From positions 27,549,681 to 27,613,680 of the forward strand of contig NC_088786.1 of the NCBI RefSeq assembly GCF_949628265.1: a stretch of 64,000 nucleotides of DNA, read 5' to 3'. The notes below the pieces were generated by a model. The model saw only the letters and a list, made by a program, of their open reading frames with translations. It was not told where the DNA came from and searched no databases. The translations under genes and the position numbers were made by a program. The stretch is from Cloeon dipterum. Its lineage: Eukaryota > Arthropoda > Insecta > Ephemeroptera > Baetidae. Positions 2,338 through 57,600 of the stretch are shown here, piece after piece; within the stretch, counting starts at the first letter, position 1; each line of letters starts with the position of its first letter.

Positions 2338-2343
2338 TATAAG
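2338..2343 (+). promoter_or_regulatory. TATA-like box of the Akh gene
   Basis: A TATAAG hexamer lies about 170 bases before the Akh start codon. Downstream, a CAG/gtgccc donor at 2410/2411 and a ttatttcag acceptor ending at 2511 would remove a 100-base intron from the 5' UTR, so transcription probably starts near 2368 and the leader is short. This is inference from motif spacing only. Confidence 0.4.
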
Positions 2344-2515
2344 AGCCGCAACCCTGCCATCCCTCATCCATTCTCACCCGAAACCCCACTGGACCAATAC
2401 ACTGCTGCAGGTGCCCTCATTTTCTCAATTCACGCTCTTTGTTTCACTGAGTGTCCCGAAATCCTCTTGTCTTGGCGTCTTTAACAAAGTAAAAAACTCG
2501 GCTTATTTCAGTGCG

Positions 2516-3321
2516 ATGGCTCTGAGTGCACAGTCTGGCAAGCCTTTACTTATCCTGGGCCTGCTCTCCACATATCTTTTGGTTTTCTGCCTCGATTCAG
2601 CCGATGCTCAGGTAGGAGATCGTTATTGTGATATTGTTTTTGAGCGGAAAAATCTTAAACTCTATCTGCACTTTTGTAAATATCACTTATGCACCGTAAT
2701 TTGTACATTTTAGAATCTTTCTCTGTAATTTTGCTAGATCAACTACTCCCCTGGATGGGGCAAGAGAAATGGAGTAAGAATTGAAAGTGCTCAGGAGGTT
2801 ACTGGCTCATCACCTCAAGGGGTATTTCCTTAATATGTACAAATTTATGACTTATTACTTCCTTTGGTTAAAAATGTATTTTTCTTTCAATCCAGGTCTT
2901 GTGTTTTGTGGTTTGAGTTCACTGGAATGCTGAATATGTGCATGTAATTCAAGGTTTTATTTCAGGTCTACAGATATCTATAATTATGTTTGCTTGAATG
3001 TATCGAATGAATTAGTTTTTTTTCTACAGAATTTCCGTGAAACTACATCTGAAGTATAGCAACCTTTTTTAGGTGAACTTCTCACCGGGATGGGGCAAGC
3101 GTGGACTATCAGGAGCTGCTGGCCCTGGCGTGGGAATTCCGCAAGAGCTCCGGGACTCGTCATGCAAATCATCCATGGACACGATTCTTCACATTTACAA
3201 GCTGGTGCAGGTATGATTAATTCAGCTGCACAGAGGAAATTGAAAAATGGCATGATCGTTTTTCAAATTACAGGCCGAGGCGCAAAAGTTGACCAACTGT
3301 GAGAAGTTTGGCAGTGAATGA
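2516..3321 (+). CDS. Akh: Adipokinetic hormone precursor with two alternative hormone exons
   Basis: Adipokinetic hormone is the insect neuropeptide that mobilises fat-body lipid and carbohydrate through a GnRH-related receptor. Exon 1 (2516-2611) encodes a 31-residue hydrophobic signal peptide ending in Ala-Asp-Ala, plus Gln32, and stops in phase 0. Exon 2B (3073-3210) encodes VNFSPGW-GKR and then a spacer with one Cys; exon 3 (3274-3321) encodes the 15-residue C-terminal tail with a second Cys and the stop. The joined precursor is 93 aa, a normal size for the family. The predicted hormone is the octapeptide pGlu-VNFSPGW-amide, with Gly40 as amide donor and Lys-Arg as cleavage site. An extra exon (2A, 2738-2821) lies between exons 1 and 2B and encodes a second hormone core; it is listed separately. 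The start ATG follows a 5' UTR acceptor by four bases. AATAAA lies at 3541. Confidence 0.95.
2738..2821 (+). CDS. Akh: Akh alternative exon 2A encoding a second AKH peptide
   Basis: This 84-base exon is preceded by a pyrimidine-rich tract ending in ttgctag and followed by a gtattt donor. It encodes INYSPGW-GKR followed by an 18-residue spacer, all 28 codons open. Spliced to exon 1 in phase 0 it takes the shared Gln and yields pGlu-INYSPGW-amide. It is also phase 0 at its 3' end, so it can join exon 3 directly in frame. If the donor is not used, the frame reads on through Val-Phe-Pro and stops at 2831-2833, giving a shorter precursor. If 2A and 2B are both included, the frame stays open, but the second core would be preceded by Gly with no dibasic site and could not form a pGlu peptide. 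Mutually exclusive use is therefore the sensible reading. Whether it is expressed cannot be seen here. Confidence 0.85.
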
Positions 3322-4590
3322 TGAAGTCCGGTATCCTGCACCATCCAGCACACATTATTTGAGGAATATTTTTAGAAGACGCGTTGAAGCAAAAAAGGGC
3401 TATGTCATACAATTGTAATTCGTTTTTAAAACAAGAGGCTGGGCTTTGATTTAACTTTGCAGCAAGTGTGTATCTCATTTTTTGCTTCAGATGCTTGATT
3501 TTTAATTGCTAATAATTATTATTTCTACAAACGATTTGTAAATAAAAACAAATTAATTTACCGTAGCCCTTATTTTGAGCAGTTTCTTTTCAAATTTGCT
3601 CCTCAAATCCCAAGATCAAACTTAACTGTTTTTATCATGATAGATAATTTTCCCATGAAAAAATTCTACTTGCTCAAAGTAAAGTAGCATGTATAATCGG
3701 CTTGATAGAAACCACGGGGGTCAGTTAATAGATCGCGGTACTGTTGGTACCTGGTGTCACTTCCGGATATGCAAGAAATTTGTCACTTTAAATTATATCA
3801 GCAATGGCATACGACCTCCGCAAAAAGAGCACCAAACGCAAAAAAATCAGAGCGGTGAAAGCTAAATCGTAATTACGCTTTGAATATTATTAACGCGACC
3901 GATGAAAATCGATCGGTTTTGTGCCGATGCAAAATAGAGTAGACGCGGACACATTTGAATTGTGATTGGGCGCTCGGGTATGACATTTTATCACTTCTGG
4001 CTGCAATAGCTGGCAGTGCAAAAAGCACTGAATCAAGTAGCCGAGTCGGTCAATACACAGTCCGACGCCTGCTTTTTAATGCTTAATTAGAAACATATAC
4101 AAGACGCACTCATTAGTTATGCCAATAAAAAGGACCGTCTTGCTCGGCTACACCTCGCCGCGTCGGGTGTTACGGAAATAATCGGCACATTGCGTCCCAC
4201 ATTCAGGACAGCGACTTTAATTATTTTTTTGCTCTCGGTGCAGCTTTGAGAAAAACATAATATGCAATAAAGTTCTCTTCTTAGAAAAGTTGAAATTTTT
4301 AAATTAAGTTCTCGAAGGAAAAGGTTTTGCGGAAAAGTGCGGAGAGCAAAAAGTTGATTTTACACGCCTGCTGCACGGAGTCAAAAGTCACTCACGTAAA
4401 AAAGCACTAGGAACTAGAAGAGCGATACAACTAAATCTATAAGAGAAACATCCACGTCAGAGCAGCGTGGAACAAAAAAGAATTAATTTCGCACGGTTTG
4501 TTCAGAGCCATTAACTTCGTGATATTCAAGTTAACTATTGTTTACTCGCAGTTTTTGTTGTTGTTGCACTTTACAGGTATTGTTCGCCGA
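3322..4590. other. Akh 3' UTR and intergenic DNA
   Basis: The Akh 3' UTR probably ends shortly after the AATAAA at 3541. The rest is AT-rich with no recognisable gene. A ttttacag acceptor-like site at 4569-4576, just before the ORF pair at 4592-5092, suggests that an upstream untranslated exon could lie somewhere in this stretch. Confidence 0.45.
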
Positions 4591-11803: not shown

Positions 11804-14800
11804 TTAAGCATTCTTGAACAAATCTCGAAGGTCTTCAATGTCAAGCTTCACGCTCTTCTTCTTGTTCAAGACACCCTCAGAGAGTTCCAATTTTTTCTCC
11901 TGCATTATCTCAATTGATGATTCAATGGAATGTTGGCAGATGAGCCTAATGAAAAATGGAATATTAGAGTCAAACCAATACAAATTTAAGATTATCGTAC
12001 TTATAAATGTTCACATCTTTCTTCTGGCCAACTCTGTAGATTCTGTCCATAGCTTGGGCCTCCAGTTGAGGGTTCCAATGGATGTCCATGAGGATCAAGT
12101 TGTTCCCTCCGATCAAATTGACTCCAGTACCCCCAGCAGTCAAAGACAACAGCAGCACCTGTTAAGTGACATCATTGTTTAAGTTAATGAACACTAAAAA
12201 ATTACTAACATTTACCTTGATCCTTCCCTGCTTATCATTAAAGTCGGAGATGATTTCTTGTCTCTTCGCCATGGTTAAGTCTCCAGAGAACAGTGTTGAA
12301 CGGAATCCAGCAGCACGCAAGTGATACTTCACAATAGTCAAAAAGCTCTTCCACTGAGACACAATAACAACCTTCTCTTCCCTCTCTCTGATTTCTTCCA
12401 CGAGTTTCAAAGTGGCTTTGATCTAAGTCCAAACTAAATACACTGTTGCAAATAACTTAACATAACTGTACCTTTGTGCTTTCGAAGTCTTCCTCATAAA
12501 TAGGGTCATCAGAGTCAAGTAAACCTTTCTCCTCTGGTTCATCTCGCCCAGCAATGGAGAGGTTGTTGATGTCATTTACCAAATCATCAAAGCTGTTTTC
12601 CTTGACATCGATATTCTCTGCCTCCATTACGTCATCGTCTAATTTCTAGAAATATCACAAACAATGTATTTCAAAATGATACAGATATGAATAATACATA
12701 CATCAACACTAAACAATGCAATAATTAAATAATAATAGTGAAAGGGATCAGTTGATCTGTAAAGAGATTTTGTCCTCTCTAATGCAAGTACTTACATCCT
12801 TGACAAGAGACATGTGGCAGCAAATCTGGCGAAGCCTCAAAAGGAGGACAAGGATGTGAGAGGACTTTACATTTTGCCCATCCATGAACATGCCTTTCTT
12901 CACATCAAAGCCGTCCTTTTCCAGCTGCTCCATAGCTTTTCTAACTGCATACACATCTTCACCACTATCAACCATTCGCTCAGCTCGTTGTAAAATAAAC
13001 TTGGCCATCAGTGTTCTGAAATTCAATATTAAACAGAGAGATCATTATTACCTTTCCATAAAATAAATCATTGGGATTTCAAATTTATTTTGATCACACA
13101 ACAAGGAGCAACATCTTAACTGATGGCTACTCTTTGAATTTTTTTTAAATGAAATTTATAGTTGCATTTCTTTTTAATTATTGTCATAGTCAATTGATTG
13201 AATTAAGCATCAAGCTGTGGAGTAACCTCTAGCATGAATTTGTCTAGTGCCGTTAAATTTATTCTGGAGAAATGGACCACAGAAACATACTTAGATTTCT
13301 TGAGCATGTGCTGATAGATCTTGTTTTCCTCCTCACTCAGAACCAACTCAACTTGTTGCACACCCTTGCTAGGCAGACAATCAAGCTGGCCCATTTCATG
13401 AAGCTCGGCCTTTGTTCTTCGCAGCATGATTGTCTTCATCAATGTGTTCAGTCTTTCCAATCCTGCAGAGCTCTTGTTCTCTGCTACTCTCCGCCACACC
13501 TGTCAAAGAAAATGGACTATATGTAAGAATTACAATTTTTACTCATTCCATCCCAACCATCTCGTTAGTAAACGGAGTAAACTTGAGGAAGTACAGCAAA
13601 CTGTAGATGTCCTTCAGTTTGTTGTGGAGTGGAGTCCCGGTCAAGCACCAACGGTACTTGCCTTCCAATTGATAGGCACCCTGTGCGATCTGAGTTTTAG
13701 GGTTGCGGATGGTGTGCGCCTCATCGAGGATGATTCTTTCCCATCGGACTTGGAAAAGTGTGCCCTAAAATACAAGATGAAGCATTAGATTGAAAGCTTC
13801 AGAATGACTTGAAAATGCTTGACAAAAAATCTTCTCGAGTAGTTGTAAAAATTAAGCAGCAGATATATGATTAAATTCATTAAATTAAATGATTAAGAGA
13901 AAATTTGATGTAATTTGCTTACTGAAGGCTTGGTCTCATCGCCAGGAATGAAGTCTGTGGTAATTTTTCCTTCTCGGCCCACAATGGCAAAAGAAGTGAT
14001 CACTACATCAGCTCGGCAGAGCCTAAAAATCAATCATTACTTAAATTTATCTAAATATTATGAATGACAAAATCAACTACCTGTTAAGAGAAATTCCTCT
14101 TGAATTTCCGTGGTAAACATAAGGTACAAGAGCTCGGGGCTTGCAACGCTGAACAATTTCTGCCTCCCACTGCTTCAGGACACTAGCAGGGCAGACCACC
14201 AGAGTCTTCGCTTTCTTCAGGCCTGATAAATTATTTGTTTTGTTAACTGGAAAGGTTCTGCTTAAAAAGGCAGTGATCGAAAAATGCTGGATTTTTTAAT
14301 ATAATTTCAACCCAGCCGGTTTTCACCAGCTAAATTTAGGGAATTAATAAAATAATTCAAGTATAAAACACAATTACCACCTTGTATTTTAAAATTTTAA
14401 GACTGCAATTTTGATAATGATTTAATTTAAAAACCAAAATAAAATCTTAACAGTGTTTCAGTAGTAAACAACCTATTTTAGCCATATTATATTTGAACCG
14501 TAAAAAGACAATTTATGTCAAAAAAATTTCCTGGTTTTAACCACCCTGGCTAAAACCAGCTGATCAAAGTCGCGAACATTGTAATTAGGTTACCTCCAGG
14601 ACTTGCAGTGATATTTTCCTCATTGTCCTTGATCAGCTCCCTGCTTCGCAAAATTAAGGCAATCATGGTAAGAGTTTTTCCAAGACCCATGTCATCCGCT
14701 GTTAATTGTAAATAGTTAAGACTAACAATTAGGCGAGATTACACTCAGTACCTAAAATTCCGCCTTTAGGGTGCTTGCACTCCCTCCAAAGGGCCCAAGC

Positions 14801-51672: not shown

Positions 51673-54600
51673 ATGAAGACGCTTGTGGTGCTGATGTTGT
51701 TGGGCCTGGCCGCCGCACTTGGCCCCGTCAACCACCACCTGCAGCAGGAGCTGGACATGGGCAGTCCTAACAAGTAAGACGCGCGCGCACCGCACCGCAC
51801 TGTTGAGCTTGCTGGACGAGTGCCGGCTAGTCTGTCGGTCTGTCAGGCAGCTCGTTTTATTGTTTTACTGCCTCATCAGGGCCGGCCAGCCAGCTAGCCA
51901 GTGTCGACGATCATTTCAATTCGTTCTTTCTTTGCCTCAATGTTACGCAAACACTCTCGCCCATTGTCTCCGGGCGGCCCACCAGTATAAAGTTGGCGTT
52001 GTAGATTGATGGAGAGATTATTCGCGCGCCTGCTCTCATTAAATACGAGACGCTGTGGAGACAGCACTTAACCAGCTAGTTGCCCCGGTGCTTGAGACAT
52101 GAATGGCGTCTACTCCACTTTATTGCTTCTTGATTAATAAAATGTTGCGTGGGAAAAAGTCGGATTTGATCAAAAGACTGAAATTTTAACATCTCAGATG
52201 CGAGTGAAAAGCTAATAAAATTATTTTTTTGTATCAGCTTGGCAGCCACCGCCGTGGCCGCAGCAATGGAGGACAGCGGAAGTGATTTTGACTTTGAGTC
52301 ATCAAGAATGCCCGATTCAAAACTGTCCGTGTCTGCGCCATCGTGGCCCAACGGGGACTTGGAGAGAGTGCAACGCCTGTGGGGCATTGCCGACACTTCA
52401 GCCACTGTGGGCCACCTCTTTTCCTTTTCCGTCCCAGCTGACGCTTTCTCAGGGGATGTTAGGAGTTATGAGGTAATATCAGCGAGTGGACATTTTCTTC
52501 CTTTCACTTTTTCTAGCAAATTTATATCTACAACCTAATCAGATTTAAAGATCTAATTTTCCCCCCTCAAAATCCTTTTGGGTAAATATGGAAATTTTCC
52601 ACACGACCCCTTGCAAATAATTTTTGCTTACAATAATTCTGATTGGAAACGTTTTCCCCACTAGTTGAGCTGGACTATCAATCACGCTTATTTTTTTCGC
52701 CCTAGGCCGTGGTAGACAAGAGTAAGTCACTGCCAAAGTGGTTGCTGTTTCAAGCGACCACAGGCCACTTTGAGGGTGTGCCAGGAGCTTCCGACGTAGG
52801 AGAGGTCTATGTCAGGGTGATTGCCCGGGGCGAGAACGGCGAGAGTGCCACTGACGTTTTCGCCATCAACGTAGTGCCCAAGAGCAATTACCAGATTCCT
52901 GAATGCGACGTTGGCCAGGACCGGCTACAAATATCGGTGCTGGTGGACGCACAACTGAAGAAAATCAACCCTAAGAGACGGGTTGCTTCAATCAGAAATC
53001 TCGCAGGCTTCCTTAGTGTGTCACCAGTAAGCAAACTCTCTTATACTTGATTGAAAAAAAATAATCCAACTCGTTTTTTCTTGCAGGACACAGTGAAAAT
53101 GTTGAATCAGGACTCTGAAAGTGCAGTTTCCCTGCACGACGAAACTGTGGTGGCTGCGGGCCCTGGAAACTCCAAACATGGCCGCACTACCCTGGATCCT
53201 GCTGTGGTGCTCAAGTTCCCTTCAACCTGCTCCACTCCCGGCCACCCTCTTCTGATTGAAAGACTTCAGGCTCTGGCCAAAGACGGCACCCTGGCCGAGG
53301 TGCTGCAGCTGCCTGTGATAGGGTGGTTGGCCCAGCAGACCACTCCAAGACTGCTCACTACTAAAGCCCCAATTAGGGAGCGAAGACAGGTAATCCTTCT
53401 GCTATATTTCCTGAGAAATTAAATTATTTCATATTTAATTTGGTTAAAAAAGTTACCATTTGGTAAAATCTTACTTAATATATTTAGTTATTTCCATCAG
53501 GCACGTGATATTAAAAGTAGAAATAAATTTAATGTCACCCCGAATCTAAAAAATCTAAAAACATTTCTCTAGTTCTCAAGCTTTTTTCTTCTCGTATAGC
53601 AGCAATATTAATTAATATCGCTCCCCTGTAATTTTCATCCAAATAAAATTTGAGATAGTCGCACTTTCTAGCAGAACCATTTTTATGCTACACTAACCAG
53701 CGTTTAAAATAAAATGTTGACTTCAATTAGATTCTAATTTTAGGAATACATTTCCTAAATTAATAATCTAAATTTGAGCACTAAAAGCACTGCCCCTAAC
53801 AATTCATTTACTCTTGTCAGATTGAAGGTTCCGGTGGTGGTGATGACCTGAACACTGATGATTATGAATATGTGAGTCGTGAAAGCACTGAAGATGACGA
53901 AGACCTGGGTGAAGATGTCACCCCTCCCGCTCGTGAGGTTCCTTCAATGGCTTCGCCCATTTTCCCAGAACCGACTACTGCCACTACTCCGCAGCTGCAG
54001 TCTGAGCATCCACGTCGCCACCATCACGGTGAAAAAATATCTGAAGAGGACTTTGCTGTCAGCCCAACCAACAGTCCTGCTTTGGTCGCTTCGATAGTGC
54101 CCACGCCATCGTTAGTGCCCATCAGGCCGACTCGCTTGTCGGATCTAGTCACCACCCCTGAGGGCCCTGAAGGTCCCATCGAGCCAACAAGAGTCGGAGC
54201 GGAAGACTTCATGCCTGTCACTCCTTCGTTCACCCCAAGCCTCACTCCGGAGCCTGACTATGAAGGTTCAGAAGAGGACGAGACAAGCGAGGACACAAAT
54301 GTCTACGGAAGCAGTCCCTCTAGTCCGCGAGTCACGCAACCACTGCCCACTTTCCCTTCGAGCTCGCCTAGCGGGAGCACAATTGAGTCCAGACCGGTTT
54401 CCGCCGAGGATGAATTAAGTAGCACCACAGAGAGCACCAACCGAGCAACTACTGAAGAGATTGAGTTTGGAATTAAAAACTTTGCTCCCCAAATCAAACA
54501 GCGGCTACCCAAACAGGTTGTGACCGCCGGCAAAGTGTTCAGGTTCACCATTCCGGAAGACTCATTCCAAGACTTTGAAGATGGAAACACAAAGAAGCTG

Positions 54601-57600
54601 AGGCTTATTTTCAAGAGTGCTCAGGGAACCGCCTTGTCTTCCAGTTCGTGGATCCAATTTGATACAGCAACTCAGGTAGTTTATGGCCTGCCCTTGGAGG
54701 ACCATGTCAGCAGGTGGAATTACTACGTTGAGGCGATGGACAAGGAGGGTAAAACCGTCACCGACACTCTGGAAGTCGTAGTTCAACAACACAAAGCCTC
54801 CCGCGCTGTGAACCACGCGTTCTCCCTGCAGCTCAAGATCGACAGCAAGTTTGACTTCCCTTCTTCCGTCGACTGGCAAATGAACGTCCTCAGCGGACTG
54901 ACTAAGTTCTTTGGTGACTCCAACGAAAACCACATCACCGTCCTTAACGCTACCGCCAGCATGAGCTCCAGTGACAACATCCTTTTCTCCTGGACCAACG
55001 ACTCTCTGCCAAAAGAAGAGTGTCCGACCCACACTCTGAAACAGATGTACTCAAAAATGACCATAAACGAGAAGGGTGACGCTTCGTCTGATTTGAAGCA
55101 GGCCATCGGCAAGACATTCACCATCAAGCACGTCATGTTTAAGGGTATTAGCAACTGTGAGTCTTTGGCACTTGGGCCCCAGCTTGCCACACGACAGAAG
55201 GAACTTCCCACTGATGAAGGTGACAGTAACTTTCCTCCGAGCTTGCGAAACCACGTCGATCATCTTAACGCTACTGCTGGCGAGCTTCTCGTTTACAGAG
55301 TGCCTGAGGTGGGCGAAATCTTACTTTTTTGCTTTTTCCTATTTCATTTGTAAATTACAGCATGTTAGATATCACTGTTAAAATTTATTTAGATCTTAAT
55401 AGAATAGGTTCCATTATTTAATTTTAATTTTTAGTACTAGACTTGTTTGAATCTTTGATGAGTTAAGCAGGGTTGTTTTATTTTATATTTGACTCTCCGC
55501 ATATAAAATTTATGTACTTTTATTCTAGGACACCTTTTACGATAATGAGGATGGCAGCACAAGGAACATGAAGCTTAGCCTACTGCTCATGAGCCGGTCA
55601 CCAGTCGAGCCTACCAACTGGCTCCAGTTTGACGCTAAAAATCAAGAGTTCTTTGGCATTCCAGAGAAGCATGACAAGGGCACGAGAGAGTATCAACTGG
55701 TAAGTTAATATTAAATTTTCGAGGAAATTTCATGAAATGATGCAGTTATAATTTATGGAACAAAAAATATAATTTATCTGGTGTTATTTTTCCCAACAAT
55801 AGGTGTGTGAAGACAGCAATGGGCACTCCATCAATGATGGTCTTGAAGTGACAGTGCATCAAGCGGAGCAAAGGCCTCACCATGTCGAGTTTAGAATGAC
55901 TTTGTCCAAACCGACTCTGTCTGAAGTTGAGAAAAACGCTGCTAACAAGCGCAAACTGGTGGAAAGAATTGCTGAGCTGTTTGGTGACTCTGACACTAAA
56001 AATGTTATTCTGGACAATCTTCGCCAGCCACCCTTCCAGCACCACTCTGGACCTAGTCCCACCATAGAAGTTCTTTGGTAAGTTGAAATTGTTGTTTTTA
56101 TCTTTGAATATGACTAGTAGTTGCTTATTATTGACCAGAAGGACATGATGCTTGGAATAAGGTTACTCAAAATCAATGCTTGTCCCAGTAGAATTCATTC
56201 AAATTGATTGAATATGGTTTTAATCTGAGCTATTTTTATTTCGCAAATTCAGGTTTTTCATTCTATGCAGCAAGAGCGCATTTTTTAAATAATGCACCAA
56301 ACTCCAGAACAATTATTTATTATTGATATAGCTCCCAAAGGATTTCATCTTAACTCAATAAAATTGTGGCATAACGTTTTGCAGAAAGCTTTGAAAATGT
56401 ACTTGCTGGAAACCAATGAAATGACAATAATTATTGCTAATATTTATTGATGTTTCTGATCTTCATCGTTTCTTAAAAAAACTCGAGGGAGTTATGTCAT
56501 CACTATTTTAATTTTTGATTTAAAACAGCAAAATTTTTGCTTGAAGTTTTCTCAAGTTTAGAGATTATTTAAAATTTTTGTTTTCAGCCATAATGCAAAT
56601 TTGCTAATGATTATGATAATAAATCTTATTTGAAATTATTTTGCTTCAATATTTCTCACCATCCTCGATATTGTATTGATTCCACAATTTTTTTTCTTTA
56701 CTCAATATTTTTTTCAACATTGAGCCATATTTTTTTAAGCAAATACAAAAAATATTTAATGAAACAACAAAAACAAGTTGTTTTGCAGGTGAACTCAACC
56801 ACAACACACATTTTAGTACAGCTTTATAGTATGGATAACATTGCGTTCAAGTGACCTTGTCAATATAAATTCTACTTACTCAAAGTATTTAAAAATATAA
56901 AAATATGTTTTTTATGAATGAAAATATAGATAACGGCCTTTGCATGTATCACACCATCGCTTTCTTTCACATAAAAGCAACTCCTAAGTAGGCTTTTTCT
57001 CATTCTTTTGGTGACACTCGCGTGGAGCAGAGGTAAGTTTTTTTTGTCAGTTTAGGTCTTTCAAGATGCGATTTTTGGGGTCTCGATTATTATTCTTGTC
57101 TTGTGATTTAATAAATTATAATAATATAAATTTGGGAAGCACCATAGAAAATTGAATACATATCCTCTCTCCAATAACGCAAATAAATAATTAAAAACGA
57201 AGTTATTACGGTAAAGGTATCTGCATAAAAGGCGGATTTCATTTAAAATGATTTTACTTATTTTGGGCAGCTATATTTAGCTGAATGCGTACAATCGCGT
57301 TGTTTATTAATAATAATCTAAACTCAATGATGTTGCCGACAGGTTCAACAAGTCTCTGCCAGTGGACCATTGCCCAGAAGCTGAAGTCGCGAGTTTGAGA
57401 CGAATTATCATCTCAGAAGAGGCGCAGGGCCACAGCAACCCGTCTGTGTCCCACACGCAATTCTCTCCGCGAGTGACGGAGGTTATGCGCTCTGACTTCA
57501 ACGTGCTGCGCATCATGATGGTTCCCACCGGCATCTGCCAGAGCGAGTTCACGTTTGAACACTCGCCCGTGACCCCAGAGCCGCCGCCAGATGATGACCT

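Follow-up and report, generated by a model that had tools for sequence, protein, structure and literature searches.

The Akh gene and its exons

AKH, an energy-mobilising hormone and a cousin of GnRH, drives the release of fuel in insects. We examined the Akh gene of the mayfly Cloeon dipterum, which lies on contig C1 of a genome of 190.1 Mb in 10 contigs, within a stretch of 64,000 nucleotides (27549681-27613680) that we call the window. Positions without a contig name count from the first letter of the window. Splice sites were scored with generic tables, and the percentiles rank them against the + strand AGs or the GTs of the window. A slash marks the boundary between exon and intron. The features are as follows.

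2338..2345, + strand: TATAAGAG, a TATA-like box ahead of the gene, read directly from the sequence
2411..2511, + strand: possible 5'UTR intron, CAG/GTGCCC ... TTTCAG/TGCGATG; donor at the 88.1 percentile, acceptor at the 89.9 percentile
2516..2611, + strand: first coding exon, encoding the signal peptide and Gln1 of the hormone (CAG) and ending in phase 0; translation MALSAQSGKPLLILGLLSTYLLVFCLDSADAQ; donor CAG/GTAGGA at the 99.4 percentile
2738..2821, + strand: exon 2A, INYSPGW-GKR core (2738-2767) and a short tail; acceptor at the 83.9 percentile; 2821 is one of three phase-0 ends
2774..2779, + strand: alternative 2A donor GGA/GTAAGA, phase 0 (exon end 2773); score 72.2, 93.6 percentile
2798..2803, + strand: alternative 2A donor GAG/GTTACT, phase 0 (exon end 2797); score 73.6, 95.3 percentile
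2831..2833, + strand: in-frame TAA, closing the 2A frame when no donor is used, by sequence reading
3030..3072, + strand: 43 bases behind the acceptor T8CTACAG/AATTTC; frame 0 reads NFRETTSEV and a stop
3073..3210, + strand: exon 2B, VNFSPGW-GKR and a tail with the first Cys, 138 nt; acceptor at the 89.6 percentile, donor CAG/GTATGA at the 99.4 percentile
3274..3321, + strand: exon 3, AEAQKLTNCEKFGSE with the second Cys, ending in TGA; acceptor at the 99.0 percentile
3541..3546, + strand: AATAAA poly(A) signal, from a hexamer search

Exon 2B is in phase 0 at both its 5' and 3' ends. When it is joined to exons 1 and 3, the result is a 93-residue AKH precursor with a signal peptide, QVNFSPGW, GKR and two tail Cys. 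This precursor scores 52.9 bits against the Pfam family Adipokin_hormo (PF06377; cut-off 22.9, E 5e-14) and has every residue expected of an AKH, namely the Gln, allowed residues at positions 2-8 (rules from PMC10322821), Gly-Lys-Arg and the two tail Cys. From its translation, 1-2B-3 is an ordinary AKH precursor, predicted to release pQVNFSPGW-amide. That peptide is the known Manto-CC (PMC9573411, PMC10926376). The AKH reported for mayflies is pQVNFSPSW (PMC7198766, PMC10926376), which matches neither peptide of the present gene.

Exon 2A begins at 2738 directly after a TAG, and its translation up to 2821 is INYSPGWGKRNGVRIESAQEVTGSSPQG. The preliminary description of the locus had exon 1 ending with the Gln codon in phase 0, two hormone exons behind one signal peptide and one Gln, and open frames for both 1-2A-3 and 1-2B-3. 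Each of these points is borne out by the sequence and by the joined translations. The acceptor at 3030, the donors at 2774 and 2798, the decayed tail of 2A and the corresponding intron of the ACP gene (see below) go beyond that description.

We searched positions 2501-3700 for eight poly(A) hexamers and found two, the AATAAA at 3541 and an AGTAAA at 3678. None of the eight lies between 2A and 2B, and we rejected a poly(A) end belonging to a 2A transcript alone. Elsewhere in the window, a large exon at 53800-55350 (+ strand) matches dystroglycan (DAG1, E 4.8e-10); an acceptor upstream of it, at 53087, is the second best on the + strand of the window. An exon at 13206-13502 (- strand) belongs to an SNF2-related helicase (E 7.2e-9).

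Two hormone cassettes and a related gene

Could the second cassette be a chance resemblance? We searched the 190.1 Mb genome with a degenerate pattern (an NTN codon, Asn, Phe or Tyr, a Ser-like residue, Pro, Gly, Trp, Gly, Lys and an Arg-like residue). It matches at two places, the cores of 2A and 2B, and a reversed control matches at none. The two cores share 23 of 30 bases, and the runner-up register within 2612-3042 shares 15 of 30. A chance origin of the pair is excluded, and the similarity marks the 2A core as a real duplication of the 2B core. As tandem duplicated exons, 2A and 2B are adjacent, are homologous in the core and both start in phase 0. A looser pattern gave five matches, namely 2A, 2B and three more; the three are at the level of chance, because the reversed control yields eight. 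One of them (L015, C4:13857259-13857283, - strand) has FNFSPLWGK directly behind TTTTTCAG and a Gln in the same frame, with no dibasic site following; it too is at the chance level of the looser pattern, with its eight control matches.

We also searched the genome in six frames with the Pfam family. Eight places were found at E values up to 10, and two of them, exon 2B and a gene on contig C3, exceed the cut-off; 2A is not among the places listed. None of the other six (including L004-L007 on the minus strand) reads as a convincing hormone. One of these (L008, C1:32697524-32697571, + strand) lies in a long open frame and reads QLSFSLEWKRGKR, which resembles an AKH; it stays below the cut-off at E 2.2, lacks a signal peptide immediately ahead of it and is probably due to chance. 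An exact pattern for the corazonin core has no match in the whole genome; that gene may be split or variant. A search with the COX1 family gave one broken 46-residue fragment under the cut-off (L010, C2:8963136-8963273, - strand), and no mitochondrial contig was found.

The C3 gene encodes the peptide QVTFSRDWTAGKR, and we take it to be the ACP gene from its sequence. Three coding exons can be read at this locus (L002:462-551 and about 1501-1796; C3 near 36.73 Mb). The candidate exon 1 (L002:462-551) ends ...SAVAQ at CAG/GTGAGT, in phase 0, the next exon opens with a Val codon after TCAG, and a second intron lies in the tail. The joined precursor scores 60.9 bits against Adipokin_hormo. Thus, a phase-0 intron after residue 1, where the Gln codon closes exon 1 and the core opens the next exon, appears to be common to AKH and ACP in this genome. 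Unlike the Akh gene, the ACP gene carries one hormone core, the only one over the 3114 bases examined at its locus. The split between Gln and residue 2 is ordinary, because the ACP gene shows the same intron; the unusual feature of the Akh gene is its second hormone exon, 2A.

In the literature, insect AKH genes are described with either one or two coding introns, and one intron frequently keeps its position and phase (PMC5024129). Where several AKHs are described in one insect, they come from several genes (PMC4237046, PMC6585902), in agreement with the preliminary description. The present gene resembles insect AKH genes in general (PF06377), as well as locust AKH I-IV and the beetle AKH pairs, in its signal peptide, octapeptide, GKR, Cys tail and, putatively, more than one AKH. 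However, the locust and beetle hormones are described as products of separate genes, while here the second hormone exon lies within one gene. Beetles are known to have duplicated hormone exons that give alternative transcripts (PMC6585902), in allatostatin CCC, in CRF-like hormones and partly in sNPF; beetle DH31 has extra alternative exons (PMC6585902). In allatostatin CCC and the CRF-like DH37/DH47, alternative splicing of the duplicated exon yields two related peptides (PMC6585902). In contrast to those genes of other families, where the last coding exon is duplicated, the duplicated exon here is internal, and the shared exon also gives the first residue of both hormones. Another likeness is to ITP-A/ITP-B and orcokinin A/B, where one neuropeptide gene makes different mature peptides with alternative exons (PMC7570057); mutually exclusive splicing is described there as known, whereas alternative splicing of the Akh gene is a prediction from DNA. 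In the literature that we searched, which is of partial coverage with few subscription papers, we found no AKH gene with a duplicated hormone exon among the matches listed. None of its papers contains the string INYSPGW, while 7 contain VNFSPGW.

Precursors, divergence and splice sites of exon 2A

We translated nine joins that contain 2A. All nine carry QINYSPGWGKR and have the Gln, the allowed residues at positions 2-8 and the Gly-Lys-Arg. A two-Cys tail is found in two of them, both of which include 2B; the other seven have one Cys or none. Two of the nine were scanned with Pfam: 1-2A-3 stays below the cut-off (17.6 vs 22.9 bits, E 0.0054), and the 2A read-through form has no Adipokin_hormo match at E 0.01. 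When 2A is joined to the acceptor at 3030, the product ends ...NFRETTSEV.

The cores of 2A and 2B differ at 7 of 30 bases, with an NG86 dS of 0.90 (3.5 silent differences, the estimate resting on 6.67 silent sites) and dN of 0.17 (3.5 replacement steps over 23.33 sites). Two of the ten residues are changed in the 2A core, V2I and F4Y, and both Ile2 and Tyr4 are listed among the favoured AKH residues (PMC10322821). A neutral simulation took the 2B core as its start. With 0.1, 0.2, 0.3 and 0.4 substitutions per site on the branch to 2A, the cassette stayed usable in 0.15, 0.024, 0.0035 and 0.0010 of the runs, respectively. Under this model, an intact core by chance would not be rare if the 2A branch were as slow as 0.1 per site. 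Both the core's silent sites and a tail that can hardly be aligned suggest a branch length on the long side.

The tail of 2A, up to the TAA at 2831, has no Cys. Aligned with gaps, the tail DNA (2768-2880 vs 3103-3225) gives a score that is reached by 0-20 of 500 shuffles in six settings. The front tail alone gives a score reached by 9, 28, 41 and 634 of 2000 shuffles in four scorings, while the back tail alone shows no signal (253-1981 of 2000 in four settings). In an ungapped comparison of the Cys block, 16 of 48 bases match (register rank 43 of 256). Beyond the stop, protein comparison is suggestive (14-144 of 2000 shuffles in six settings), but we do not claim homology there, because the DNA comparison fails to support it. 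For the tail as far as 2821, comparing the proteins in frame gives no significant score (390-786 of 2000 shuffles). We compared the fates of core and tail in two ways, both of which run past the stop, where the alignment is without DNA support. In the register that we tried, residue changes affect 2 of 10 positions of the core and 13 of 16 of the Cys block (Fisher p 0.004); with gaps, 8 of 10 residues are identical in the core and 10 of 29 beyond it (p 0.025). No homology was detected between the flanking introns, whose scores are reached by 173-435 (upstream) and 83-467 (downstream) of 500 shuffles. Taken as sequence comparisons, these results indicate that the hormone part of 2A has outlasted its tail. 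Selection on the hormone would account for this; a recently dead copy could also look like this. It is likely that the 2A hormone was under selection through much of its history.

There are four GTs in 2738-2833, three of them in phase 0 (2774, 2798 and 2822). An end of 2A at 2821, as first proposed, is possible, but its donor at 2822 (83.3 percentile of the window GTs) is the lowest-scoring of the three. Likewise, the proposed isoform 1-2A-3 is open, but it has just one of the two tail Cys and depends on this weak donor. The acceptor of 2A (83.9 percentile) is better than the one we assign to the hormone exon of the ACP gene (68.8). As a calibration on this genome, we took the best candidate sites, which are not proven sites, beside DEAD-box matches at 30 loci. 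For donors, 19 loci qualified, having a candidate and no more than 150 open bases behind the match; their best donors span 58.3-95.1, and 58% of them, vs 13% of random stretches, reach the score of 73.6. None of the 2A splice sites is out of the range of the genome, and none is strong. We therefore rejected donor weakness as proof against 2A, because the best DEAD-box donors span so wide a range. Docking-type pairing of introns is no better than chance, with 70, 102 and 45 of 200 shuffles as strong for the three intron pairs.

The acceptor at 3030 scores 95.1, which ranks it 1 of the window's 3574 + strand AGs, and none of the 3613 on the opposite strand scores as high. It outscores the 2B acceptor at 3073 and exceeds all of the best DEAD-box acceptors (22 of the 30 loci; 53.5-91.2). 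From 3030, a stop is met ahead of 2B in all three frames, and therefore this acceptor cannot serve the 2B hormone. Read as a donor, the 2B boundary, TAG/GTGAAC at 3073, scores 73.7 (95.4 percentile). We regard this reading as weak, because any Val-Asn start after AG partly resembles a donor.

A possible hormone switch

What, then, is exon 2A for? We put at about 0.5 the probability that this one gene makes two AKHs, chosen by the hormone exon that is joined to exon 1, with the 2A core kept by selection; present use of 2A seems an about even bet. The sole Gln lies in exon 1, and therefore the core that adjoins exon 1 would win the pGlu. With 2A skipped (exon 1 to 2B to 3), the gene would make the standard two-Cys precursor and pQVNFSPGW-amide. 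With 2A included, it would make pQINYSPGW-amide, whose precursor would most likely be short and lack the disulfide tail: of the continuations we tried, those bypassing 2B would end early, at the TAA at 2831, in NFRETTSEV via 3030, or in exon 3. The open frames, the phases, the uniqueness of the two cassettes and the conservation of the core are seen in the DNA, and from them we infer all of the splicing, as well as the making and secretion of the 2A hormone. Exon 2A would stem from a tandem duplication of exon 2, its hormone part being selected while its tail decayed. Several results weigh against this reading: the unremarkable donor at 2822, the score of 1-2A-3 below the Pfam cut-off, the absence of 2A from the places listed in the six-frame family search, the docking-type pairing no better than chance, and a mayfly AKH that is neither of the two peptides.

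It is quite possible, at somewhat less than even odds, that 2A is instead a dying duplicate, a formerly working copy of exon 2 that lost its Cys and its frame and is now skipped, so that only pQVNFSPGW-amide is made. The tail without Cys, the TAA at 2831 and the weak donor at 2822 would all suit such a copy. Beetles have been described in which an intact AKH is accompanied by failing copies (PMC6585902), and AKH precursors without a good Cys-peptide are taken there as possibly failing; in the literature that we searched, this is the chief argument against 2A. Against a dying duplicate, the core is intact though the tail can barely be aligned, the silent sites of the core have already diverged, and an AG acceptor sits exactly at the 2A core.

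The preliminary description favoured mutually exclusive splicing, since inclusion of both exons would bury the second core after Gly, with no cleavage site. The second core would then be without a Gln of its own and could leave only as an N-extended amide. Strict exclusion of the other exon is unneeded, because a core not joined to exon 1 has no Gln, and we have dropped that requirement. A single mRNA 1-2A-2B-3 might indeed make pQINYSPGW-amide and release the second core in such a form, with 25 residues if 2A ends at 2821, or as NGVNFSPGW-amide if it ends at 2773. Both joins are open and the tail then has both Cys, but the 2B hormone, deprived of pGlu, is lost from that mRNA, and the acceptor at 3030 outscores the one at 3073; we consider this improbable. 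We would be still more surprised if 2A and the acceptor at 3030 were mainly regulatory, their inclusion leading to a short or unstable product and less 2B hormone. Use of 3030 does meet a stop before 2B in every frame, and were 3030-3210 joined to exon 3, about 150 bases would separate the frame-0 stop at 3057 from the last junction downstream, yet a purely regulatory exon has no need of INYSPGWGKR.

Returning to the reading of two AKHs from one gene, we can state a bolder version of it, which we think unlikely but worth setting out. Exon 1 would give the signal peptide and pGlu to either core, and the AG/GT at 3072/3073 would be either the acceptor of 2B or the donor of a 43-base exon X from 3030, which closes the 2A frame (1-2A-X-3). 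The X and 2B routes would be exclusive, because both share the 3072/3073 boundary.

If one gene does make two AKHs, the animal could swap its hormone without altering the expression of the gene, unlike the usual case of gene duplication. It is tempting to propose a rule: given an intron right after residue 1, duplication of the next exon would supply a hormone switch at once, since the blocking pGlu goes only to whichever exon is joined to exon 1. Since ACP shares the intron position, the same route would be open to ACP.
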